From assembly GCA_025060615.1 (NCBI GenBank), contig JANXBS010000019.1:1-64000 (forward strand): a stretch of DNA of 64,000 nt, in the 5' to 3' direction. The notes under the pieces are model-generated. The model was not told where the DNA came from. It searched no databases and saw nothing but the letters and a program-made list of their open reading frames with translations. A program made the position numbers and the translations under genes. The DNA comes from Anaerolineae bacterium. Its GTDB lineage: Bacteria; Chloroflexota; Anaerolineae; DUEN01. How positions within the stretch are numbered: position 1 is the first letter of the stretch; every line of letters begins with the position of its first letter. This document shows positions 18,440-21,007 of the stretch, in pieces.

Positions 18440-18468
18440 TTGACAAAAGCCTCGGTCTGAGGTATACA
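18440..18468 (+). promoter_or_regulatory. Promoter of the Fur-family regulator operon
   Basis: A perfect -35 TTGACA (18440-18445), 17-bp spacer and TATACA (18463-18468). Transcription would start near 18475, inside the palindrome at 18471-18485. Confidence 0.7.
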
Positions 18469-18469
18469 A

Positions 18470-18922
18470 ATGATACATTGTATCAATTATGAGCCTGCTG
18501 TGGGGATCTCGGAGCTGTTAGAGGCTTTGCGACGCTCTGGATATAAGGTCACTCGAGCGCGCCGGATGGTGCTAGAGGCCCTGATCGCCGCAACGGGGCA
18601 TGCCACGGCGTCGGACGTAGTCACAAGAGTGCAGGCACATGCGCCGGGAGTAGGCCGCGCCTCCGTTTATCGGGCGCTAGACCTCTTTAGCCAACTCGGC
18701 TTGGTCCAGGCCTCCGGCTTGGGCAGCGCTGCCACCACATACACCCTTGCACCTGCTGGCCATCATCACCATCTCGTCTGCGTCCGCTGCCACAAGATCG
18801 TGGAATTTGACGATTGCTATCTGGCCGATCTGCAACGGCAACTGGCTGAGCGGTTCGGATTTCAGATCAACGGCCATCTCGTGGAAATGTATGGACGATG
18901 TCCTGGCTGTCTGGAAGAATAG
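18470..18922 (+). CDS. zur: Fur-family metalloregulator (Zur-like)
   Basis: A 150-residue Fur-type repressor. A winged-helix domain (SGYKVTRARRMVLEAL then GRASVYRALDLFSQLGLV) is followed by the metal-binding dimerisation domain with GHHHHLVCVRC and a terminal CPGC. The two CxxC pairs (104-107, 144-147) are the structural zinc site. Placement directly before a Zn/Mn ABC transporter points to zinc sensing, though Mn or Fe cannot be excluded. The start is uncertain. The ATG at 18470 has a GAGG upstream, but it lies between the -10 box and the predicted transcription start and inside the operator. The in-frame GTG at 18500 would give a typical Fur N-terminus (VGISELLEALRRSG) and may be the real start. 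Confidence 0.9.
   Translation: MIHCINYEPAVGISELLEALRRSGYKVTRARRMVLEALIAATGHATASDVVTRVQAHAPGVGRASVYRALDLFSQLGLVQASGLGSAATTYTLAPAGHHHHLVCVRCHKIVEFDDCYLADLQRQLAERFGFQINGHLVEMYGRCPGCLEE
18471..18485. promoter_or_regulatory. Fur/Zur-type operator (7-1-7 palindrome)
   Basis: A perfect 7-1-7 palindrome, TGATACA-T-TGTATCA, positioned across the predicted transcription start. Its TGAT ends and 15-bp size match the general Fur-family box plan (TGATAATnATTATCA). It is the likely site of autorepression controlling the regulator and the transporter genes behind it. Confidence 0.75.
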
Positions 18923-18925
18923 GCC

Positions 18926-19266
18926 ATGTAACGGCAGGTCTTCGGGCTCATCGGCGTATTTTGGCTGATTACGTTGACAATCGGCTGCCAGCCTTCTCCT
19001 ATCTCGCCAGCTCTGCCTGAAGCCAGGCTGCAGAGGTTGGCCGTTGAGACGTTCCTGGCCGACATCGCGCAGGACGCGGCTGGGGATCGGTTATCGGTGG
19101 AGATGTTGTTCCCAATCATGGCCGATCTACGTAGCTTCGAGCCGACGCCCAGCGATACGGCCCGCATCGTCGCAAGTGATGGTTGATCATCAACGGCGGC
19201 GGGCTGGGAGGCGCGCTGATGAAGTTAATGCCACAGGCTGATAAGAGCGGTATGATACCCGAGTGA
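18926..19266 (+). pseudogene. znuA: Decayed znuA-like metal-binding lipoprotein gene
   Basis: Remnant of the zinc ABC transporter binding protein. An ATG at 18926 is followed at once by a TAA stop. The same frame then encodes a lipoprotein signal sequence ending LTLTIGC and the family N-terminus (VETFLADIAQDAAGDR, then RSFEPTPSDTARIVASD). The expected histidine in the 'HSYEPTPSD' motif has become arginine. A frameshift near 19180 moves the reading to another phase, where LIINGGGLGGALMKLM continues the family pattern until a stop at 19264. The remaining two thirds are missing. It lies exactly where znuA would be, between the regulator and the ATPase. A functional binding protein must be encoded elsewhere or the transporter is impaired. 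Confidence 0.85.
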
Positions 19267-19301: not shown

Positions 19302-20207
19302 ATGATGGACAACGGGCAGCGGCTGAAACGTAAGGGGCAGGAGGAGGCTTTGTCATCACAGGTTCAGGGTTCCGGACTTGAAGGGGAGCTGGCCCAGTTG
19401 GAGGTGGAGCACCTAACCGTCGCCTATAACGGCCCGCCCGTCCTCTTAGATGTCACGTTTCAGGTGCCCCATGGCGCGCGCGTGGCTGTAGTCGGCCCGA
19501 ATGGGGCGGGCAAATCCACCCTCTTCAAGGCCTTAGTGGGCCTGTTACCGCTACGCCAGGGGCGTGTGCGGGTCCACGGGCGGCCGCTAGGCAGCCATCT
19601 CGATTGTGTGGCGTATGTGCCCCAGCGTGAGGAGGTAGATTGGCGCTTCCCAGTAACCGTCGCCGATGTGGTGATGATGGGACGGTATGGTCGGCTGGGA
19701 TGGTTCAGGCGTCCTCGGCCCGAGGATCACGAGATCGTCCGGCGCAGTTTAGAGCAGATGGGGCTGGCCCACTTGAGGGATCGTCCCATCGGTGAGTTGT
19801 CCGGAGGGCAGCAACAGCGCGTCTTTCTGGCGCGGGCGCTGGCGCAAGAGCCTCATATTCTGCTGATGGATGAGCCCTTTACCGGCGTGGATGCTGCCAC
19901 GCAGGAAGCCATGCTGGCGTTGCTCGATCAACTGCACGCCCGCGGGGTGACGGTGATGGTCTCCACTCACGACCTGAATCTGGCGGCCACGCGCTTTGAC
20001 CGGATATTATTGCTCAACCGCCGCGTGATTGCTTACGGCACGGCCTCTGAGGTCTTCACGCCGCAAAGCGTTCTAGAGGCGTTTAGCGGGCAAGCATTGA
20101 TCTTGCCGGGAGCGCTGGTGATTGACCAGTGCTGCCCGCCTGGTGAATCGGAGAGAGGCCGGAATCTATCCACTGCACAGGCGAGAAGTCAATGGCGGAA
20201 TGGTTAA
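19302..20207 (+). CDS. znuC: Zinc/manganese ABC transporter ATP-binding protein
   Basis: A 301-residue ABC ATPase. Walker A GPNGAGKST is at residues 65-73, the signature LSGGQ at 166-170, Walker B ILLMDE at 186-191 and the switch histidine in STHDLN. The block DCVAYVPQREEVDWRFPVTV is typical of the ZnuC/MntB group of metal-uptake ATPases. The first 30 residues before QLEVEHLTVAY are extra and poorly conserved-looking, so the true start may be later than the ATG at 19302. It overlaps the permease gene by 16 bp and is in the Zur-like operon. Zinc versus manganese specificity is inferred from context only. Confidence 0.9.
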   Translation: MMDNGQRLKRKGQEEALSSQVQGSGLEGELAQLEVEHLTVAYNGPPVLLDVTFQVPHGARVAVVGPNGAGKSTLFKALVGLLPLRQGRVRVHGRPLGSHLDCVAYVPQREEVDWRFPVTVADVVMMGRYGRLGWFRRPRPEDHEIVRRSLEQMGLAHLRDRPIGELSGGQQQRVFLARALAQEPHILLMDEPFTGVDAATQEAMLALLDQLHARGVTVMVSTHDLNLAATRFDRILLLNRRVIAYGTASEVFTPQSVLEAFSGQALILPGALVIDQCCPPGESERGRNLSTAQARSQWRNG

Positions 20208-21007
20208 CTGCGCCGCTGGCCTATGGGTTCATGCAGCGAGGGCTTCTGGCATCGGCCATGGTGGGAGTGCTCTGCGCCGTGGTCGGGTGCTACGTAGTCC
20301 TGCGTGGGATGGCTTTTCTAGGAGATGCCATGGCACACGCCATCCTGCCTGGCGTGGCTATCGCCTATCTGCTGAAAGGCAACCTGTTGGTGGGCGCGCT
20401 GGTGGCAGCGATCGCGGTAGCGCTGGGGATCGGTTTCTTCTCGCGTCAGGGTGTAATCAAGGAGGACACCGCTATCGGCATCCTGTTTGCGGCGACCTTG
20501 GCCTTGGGTGTGGCGTTGATTAGCTCAATCCGAACATACGCCGTAGACCTCACCCACATCCTGTTCGGCAATGTGCTGGGGATTAGTCCAGCCGATTTAT
20601 GGCTGACGGGTGCCCTAAGCGTGATCGTGTTAGCCACCGTGGGGCTGCTGTATAAGGAGTTCCTGGTGATCTCATTCGATCCTGTCCTCGCAGCAACTCT
20701 GCGCTTGCCAGCCGAGCAGCTGCGTTTGCTGATGCTGATCTTGCTGGCGCTAACAGTGGTCGTATCGCTGCAGACGGTGGGAGTGGGGCTGGTGGCCGCT
20801 ATGCTGGTAACGCCGGGGGCCACGGCCTATCTGCTCACGCGCCGGCTGCCGGCGATGATGGCTCTGGCGGCTGCCATCGGGGTCTTCTCCAGCATCGCTG
20901 GCCTGTATCTGAGCTTTTACGTGAACGTCGCTTCGGGCGCGGCTGTGGTTCTAGTGGCCACGGCCATCTTTGTAGGCGCATTTCTCTTGTCCTCGAAGAG
21001 ACGATAA
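20192..21007 (+). CDS. znuB: Zinc/manganese ABC transporter permease
   Basis: A 271-residue integral membrane protein of the ABC-3 (ZnuB/MntC) family with about eight hydrophobic helices. Family blocks are GCYVVLRGMAFLGDAMAHAI, ILFGNVLGIS, and QTVGVGLVAAMLVTPGATAYL with TRRLPAMMAL. The ATG at 20192 begins inside the end of the ATPase gene, indicating translational coupling. It partners the upstream ATPase to move Zn2+ or Mn2+ across the cytoplasmic membrane. No intact substrate-binding protein gene is present nearby. The operon ends here; no clear terminator hairpin follows. Confidence 0.9.
   Translation: MAEWLTAPLAYGFMQRGLLASAMVGVLCAVVGCYVVLRGMAFLGDAMAHAILPGVAIAYLLKGNLLVGALVAAIAVALGIGFFSRQGVIKEDTAIGILFAATLALGVALISSIRTYAVDLTHILFGNVLGISPADLWLTGALSVIVLATVGLLYKEFLVISFDPVLAATLRLPAEQLRLLMLILLALTVVVSLQTVGVGLVAAMLVTPGATAYLLTRRLPAMMALAAAIGVFSSIAGLYLSFYVNVASGAAVVLVATAIFVGAFLLSSKRR

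Follow-up and report, generated by a model that had tools for sequence, protein, structure and literature searches.

Does a metal importer whose own binding-protein gene has been destroyed go the way of that gene, or can it be kept in use by a binding protein encoded elsewhere in the genome? This question is raised by an operon-like run of genes on the plus strand of the 64,000-nucleotide stretch of Anaerolineae bacterium DNA analysed here, which is referred to below as “the window” (G000:C19:1-64000). The run consists of a gene for a Fur-family regulator, a remnant of znuA, a gene for an ABC ATPase and a gene for an ABC-3 permease. A preliminary description of the sequence had held that znuA is dead, that the other genes of the run look functional, and that the transporter may have been recruited to another binding protein or may be on the way to being lost.

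The znuA remnant and its operon

The remnant occupies positions 18926-19266 of the plus strand. Its ATG (18926-18928) is followed immediately by TAA (18929-18931), which makes the second codon a stop; an open frame (RQVFG...ASDG) then extends over 18932-19183 and is closed by TGA at 19184-19186, and the continuation (LIINGGGLGGALMKL...) lies in a different frame, at 19183-19263, with a stop at 19264-19266. The open piece keeps a lipoprotein-like start and a ZnuA N-terminus, and its residues 40-83 match positions 6-49 of the 263 in the Pfam ZnuA profile PF01297 (E 2.3e-6), with a score of 27.7 bits that is slightly below the 29-bit cut-off. In a tblastn comparison the stretch from 18944 to 19210 resembles residues 9-99 of the 338 in an intact ZnuA encoded on contig C8 of the same genome, and the farthest match of the remnant to any ZnuA used ends at 19213; about two thirds of znuA is missing from the window operon. 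When the remnant is compared by BLAST with 72 ZnuAs, the C8 protein is its best match, at 54% identity over 81 amino acids.

The metal site in the surviving part is also changed. The ligand motif DPH reads DLR, an exchange of a metal-ligand His for Arg in a column which holds His in 64 of 70 ZnuAs (the C8 copy included), gaps in 4 and Ala in 2, and the remnant is altered at 5 of the 10 positions conserved in at least 85% of the ZnuA alignment. With recognisable ZnuA homology, and with both reading frame and metal site destroyed, the znuA of the window operon itself is a dead relic carrying several independent lesions; the stop at codon 2, the loss of the ligand His, the frameshift and the absence of about two thirds of the gene, from which its death had been proposed, can all be read in the sequence.

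The regulator, ATPase and permease, which had been described as functional in appearance, are all full length by Pfam, in agreement with that description. The Fur-family regulator FurA (18470-18922, plus strand) matches the FUR profile PF01475 with E 1.7e-28 and 99.7 bits, and it also matches solved Fur, PerR and Zur chains; because its listed ATG overlaps the palindrome discussed below, its true start probably lies downstream, for example at GTG 18500. The ATPase, of ZnuC/MntA type (19302-20207, plus strand; ABC_tran 105 bits), has Walker A, signature, Walker B and H-loop motifs that were recognised by eye, and its initial 30 or so residues may be untranslated. The permease, of ZnuB/AztB type (20192-21007, plus strand), matches PF00950 with E 1.1e-79 and 268 bits. 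An ABC-3 permease with a matching ATPase places the pair among importers of Cluster A-I (Znu/Mnt type); a binding protein encoded in the same operon, which is a usual though not universal trait of that cluster, is represented in the window operon by the relic only.

The intact ZnuA on contig C8

The genome assembly, a draft in 73 contigs totalling 3,858,829 bases, has a completeness of 97.8%, so that another binding protein could be missing from it. A search of the whole genome with PF01297 (E<=10) found two places, the remnant and an intact gene at C8:84863-85879 on the minus strand, whose 338-residue product scores 294 bits and carries a Cys of lipobox type together with a His-rich loop. A second Fur gene stands upstream of this znuA. 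The surrounding 14 kb yielded no homologue of either ABC gene of the window, and a permissive search for remnants of ABC genes beside the C8 znuA returned nothing, the best matches having E values of 1.5 for the ATPase and 2.3 for the permease. The His-rich loop of the C8 ZnuA also gave a match within the ATPase gene, on its opposite strand (E 0.002), which was taken for low complexity.

The corresponding search for permeases with PF00950 (E<=1) gave two hits, the permease of the window and one half of a permease on contig C4 (G000:C4:60222-60620; L111:4208-4633). The C4 locus was rejected as a second complete metal importer, as ABC-3 positions 124-256 of 258 alone are matched there; neither an ATPase nor a binding protein turned up within the surrounding 10 kb, and what we take to be a DtxR-like C-terminal stretch continues in frame. 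The C4 locus is probably what remains of a second metal importer. The window permease is the sole complete ABC-3 permease found in the genome, and the sole complete binding protein and sole complete permease of the family that the searches found there are on different contigs; in the manner of AdcAII, an intact homologous binding protein is encoded away from the ABC genes.

The palindrome common to the two loci

A perfect 7-1-7 palindrome, TGATACA-T-TGTATCA, stands at the front of the window operon (18471-18485; TGATACATTGTATCA) and resembles an operator; directly upstream of it a promoter-like TTGACA-17-TATACA (18440-18468, plus strand) can be seen by eye, which is absent from the listing of the promoter scan because the rule of that scan demands T at position 6 of the second hexamer. 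A second perfect 7-1-7 palindrome of the same form (TGATAACTGTTATCA) lies at C8:85899-85913, 20-34 nt upstream of the intact znuA. The preliminary description had proposed a search of the rest of the genome for an orphan ZnuA-like lipoprotein under a similar operator, and such a gene was thus recovered.

The palindrome is rare. The pattern TGATANNNNNTATCA occurs at 4 sites in the genome, compared with 1 for the backward control and an expectation of 1.3 under a dinucleotide model built on 88 kb; 2 of the 4 are perfect palindromes, against 0.088 expected, and no third was found in the whole genome. A looser pattern gives 21 genome sites against 11 in the backward control, with perfect palindromes at 2 loci as counted by eye, and a regulon wider than the two perfect palindromes is not claimed from it. 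Within the window, a search allowing two mismatches gave 5 matches against 3.3 expected. Across 92 sequences (955,737 bases from the window genome and related loci), 15 box-like sites were found within 400 nt of the start of a fur, znuA or permease gene and 0 elsewhere, one of the 15 standing 301 nt before a permease; the loci were chosen for these genes, so the count speaks to position and not to frequency. A Fur-family (Zur-like) regulator acting at the common palindromic operator probably represses both loci.

The metal transported

The metal imported is most likely zinc, judging from the His-rich loop and the ligand positions of the C8 ZnuA. Three of these positions hold His, and the third is His in all 70 ZnuAs and Glu in the solved chains named for manganese; the fourth is variable, with His in 25 of 70. 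The named solved chains that score best against the C8 ZnuA are manganese proteins, the zinc protein AdcA scoring lower, and the best NCBIfam hits, none of which is above its cut-off, are the manganese model MntA for the ATPase and Fur models for the regulator.

Split systems among relatives

In a search of 60 genomes, the present one included, ZnuA was matched in 53 and ABC-3 in 55 at E<=0.01, some of the ABC-3 matches being weak. The same-family genomes G001, G002 and G003 have the plain order fur-znuA-ATPase-permease with proteins of another clade. In a permease tree of 80 rows, the permease is adjacent to a ZnuA (within 3 kb upstream on the same strand, the window row being set by hand) in 61 rows and separate from it in 11, with 8 assigned to neither state, and at least 10 changes between the states are required; these counts do not measure frequency, since many of the G-genome rows were picked for their split look. 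The 11 separate rows include less similar cases, namely G042 and a divergent second system of G003 (L075). A contig scan returned 80 loci, 52 of which were mapped (L112-L163); two that duplicate the contigs of G045 and G018 were dropped, as was one that was too short, and the remaining 49 comprise 41 adjacent, 3 separate and 5 assigned to neither state.

The split condition of the window genome has counterparts in three genomes with a separate ZnuA, which were counted in favour of a split system. In G033, where the genome search found a single ZnuA over the cut-off and a single ABC-3 permease, an orphan znuA lies under a perfect box (TGATAATTATTATCA), and a regulator-ATPase-permease run with no gene between them lies on another contig. 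In G061 (L133) and G060 (L135) an ATPase-permease pair has no ZnuA with it and ZnuA is encoded elsewhere: that of G061 is paired with a Fur gene near a contig end (about 1.9 kb follows), and the match in G060 begins at a contig start. No box was found at the ZnuAs of G060 and G061 or at the ABC loci of G033, G060 and G061; among the split genomes examined, the window genome alone has the palindrome at both halves.

Several other arrangements were seen in passing. In G042 (L092:5680-12394) two genes that look by eye like ABC exporters stand between znuA and the ATPase/permease pair, and in G004 (L090) a ZnuA is followed, near a contig end, by a similar ATPase hit. A lone znuA stands beside CbiQ/CbiO-like genes in G047 (L082:5695-8391) and beside phosphate-transporter-like genes in G038 (L080:5786-9864), both by eye. 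In L077, L085, L089, L150 and L151 an ABC-3 permease has no listed ATPase hit in the stretch examined, hits below 45 bits having been filtered out in the first three and below 100 bits in the last two; these loci may have scattered components, or a divergent ATPase.

Origin of the two halves

The trees were all built by a quick method, with SH-aLRT as the sole measure of support. From the larger ZnuA and permease trees the long-branch or distant rows L159, L088, L153, L161, L075 and L103 were omitted, as were L110, L093, L100, L099 and L104 and, from the permease tree, L105 and L089. The C8 ZnuA and the remnant fall in one large ZnuA clade (support 99) with the ZnuAs of intact operons, and the permeases of those operons form a clade with the window permease (support 98). 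The placement of the remnant is unsure, with 33% of columns filled and a long branch; in the larger ZnuA tree its highest identity is to L224, at 48% over 84 columns. A recent duplication of znuA within the genome is unsupported, as the trees place neither the remnant nor the C8 ZnuA as the sister of the other.

The history of the C8 locus can be approached through its Fur gene. A search of 298 genomes of the class with the C8 Fur matched 63 at E<=1e-20, and identities of at least 55%, its own gene aside, are confined to 7 genomes of family f31, the best match outside that family reaching 53%. The Fur gene is followed by a ZnuA gene in 6 of the 7, the exception being G033. ATPase and permease genes follow as well in four (G197, G169, G116 and G070); in G207 the ATPase is partial, being cut by the contig end, and in G097 ZnuA is cut in the same way. 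In view of this gene order in f31, the C8 fur-znuA pair resembles what would be left of a second fur-znuA-ATPase-permease operon, formerly complete, after the loss of its last two genes.

The tree grouping of the C8 ZnuA with f31 is weak. A strict f31 clade, comprising six rows, is present in the best tree but has a support of 27 only, and a seven-row set with the C8 ZnuA that holds one non-f31 row has a support of 83; the ZnuA of G169 falls outside the f31 grouping. The permeases of three of the four complete f31 operons (G197, G116 and G169) belong to another clade than the window permease, and that of G070, which is 34% identical, was left unplaced in the tree. In G197 and G116 (L254 and L257) a ZnuA of the same large clade as the window's is encoded beside a different type of permease, and this disagreement between ZnuA clade and permease clade suggests that permease lineages have traded binding proteins with one another. 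Since the C8 Fur and, more weakly, the C8 ZnuA group with f31, where the three permeases placed in the tree belong to the other clade, an earlier partner of the C8 ZnuA may have been another permease.

A broken ZnuA gene was also observed in G116 (G116:C183; L248:1188-2338). It is 74% identical to residues 159-338 of the C8 ZnuA and contains an internal TAG, and its N-terminal part is replaced, by eye, by an ABC-2-permease-like frame; the same genome also holds a znuA-ATPase-permease operon.

Discussion

The outcome that is favoured, in view of the intact C8 ZnuA, the full-length ABC pair and the common palindrome, is recruitment rather than loss. We think it probable that the importer persists as a split system, in which the window operon would provide the ATPase and permease, and the orphan C8 znuA would supply the binding lipoprotein in trans, with a Fur-family repressor at the common palindrome switching both loci when the metal, most likely zinc, is scarce; the common operator would keep the split parts made together. 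From the gene content of the two loci we infer that the window operon lost znuA and the C8 operon the complementary ATPase/permease part. The trans partnership is the most economical reading because the search of the sequenced genome found no second candidate partner for either half.

The pairing of a binding protein with a permease can be very specific, and hybrids between the ZnuA and AztC systems failed in Paracoccus, according to an excerpt of PMC7731109, which is evidence counter to such a partnership. Against this failure must be weighed the report, in the same excerpt, that AdcA and AdcAII use one permease although they are 39% identical; the relic and the C8 ZnuA are 54% identical over 81 residues. 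Also to be counted against the partnership are the possible earlier pairing of the C8 ZnuA with another permease and the lack of a box at one or both halves in the other split genomes.

The lesions might be thought to be errors of sequencing or assembly in a 73-contig draft, the true operon having a full znuA, but this is hardly credible and was rejected on the number and kind of the lesions: an early stop, changes at conserved residues, a frameshift and a large deletion occur together inside one contig with intact genes flanking them on both sides, and the search of the rest of the genome turned up no further ZnuA fragment that could be the missing part. An account in which the ATPase and permease use a binding protein of another family, or none, has a precedent in Listeria ZurAM, described in the excerpt of PMC7731109 as a zinc ABC locus without a binding protein; it is nonetheless improbable here, because a ZnuA of the same large clade stands under a palindrome of the same form, so that nothing else is needed.

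It is also unlikely, though the advanced state of the remnant is consistent with it, that the entire transporter of the window no longer works and has only begun to decay, with an ATPase and permease that have no lesions so far and a C8 znuA left over from another system. The broken spare ZnuA of G116, truncated and with an internal stop, indicates that redundant copies do decay in the group. In the window, however, znuA is shorter by about two thirds and has lost half of ten conserved residues, yet the ABC genes are full length and have their motifs; the C8 znuA is intact and preceded by a perfect palindrome, and no other complete importer of the family was found in the genome.

The split system proposed here has partial parallels among characterized importers. 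AdcAII of Enterococcus faecalis and streptococci, like the C8 ZnuA, is a zinc lipoprotein encoded away from the ABC genes with which it works, those of AdcACB, and is predicted to be Zur-regulated (excerpt of PMC8966984); the AdcACB operon keeps its own AdcA, whereas the window operon's copy is dead and the orphan is the sole one found. Listeria ZurAM, likened here by description and not by sequence, is like the window operon an ABC locus lacking its own binding protein, but Listeria also has a complete ZinABC (excerpt of PMC7731109), and in the window genome no other complete system of the family was found. Among other Chloroflexota, ordinary (fur-)znuA-znuC-znuB operons such as those of G018, G045 and L114 share the order znuA, ATPase, permease with the window, and their ATPases and permeases are respectively 67-71% and 76-81% identical to those of the window; their znuA is intact where that of the window is a relic. 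A fur gene is present in the G018 operon, and no fur hit was obtained for G045 or L114, the latter being cut at the contig start.

Excerpts of PMC8966984 and PMC7731109 indicate that orphan zinc-binding proteins serving an ABC pair are already known, and further background, likewise in excerpt, concerns Francisella (PMC5786701) and the Zur boxes of B. subtilis (PMC4324032). No report of split Znu systems of Chloroflexota was found in a literature search covering the titles and abstract openings of open-licence papers. Less usual features of the present case are the replacement of a dead operon copy by a single orphan, the occurrence of the palindrome at two loci only, and the repeated uncoupling in relatives. 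A wider reading, which we put forward tentatively and hold to be possible, is that two redundant zinc operons in one lineage underwent reciprocal loss and left a hybrid transporter, which took its regulator and binding protein from the first operon and its ATPase and permease from the second and is held together by an operator in common, and that uncoupling and ZnuA swapping have happened many times in Anaerolineae and their relatives.

Importer parts that are separated in the genome can nevertheless have one rare control-like site in common, and the breakage of an operon does not have to entail the loss of its function; a transporter should not be called lost solely on the ground that its binding-protein gene is dead. 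If the hybrid works, it would provide a natural case for the study of specificity between binding protein and permease, where the engineered hybrids in Paracoccus failed.
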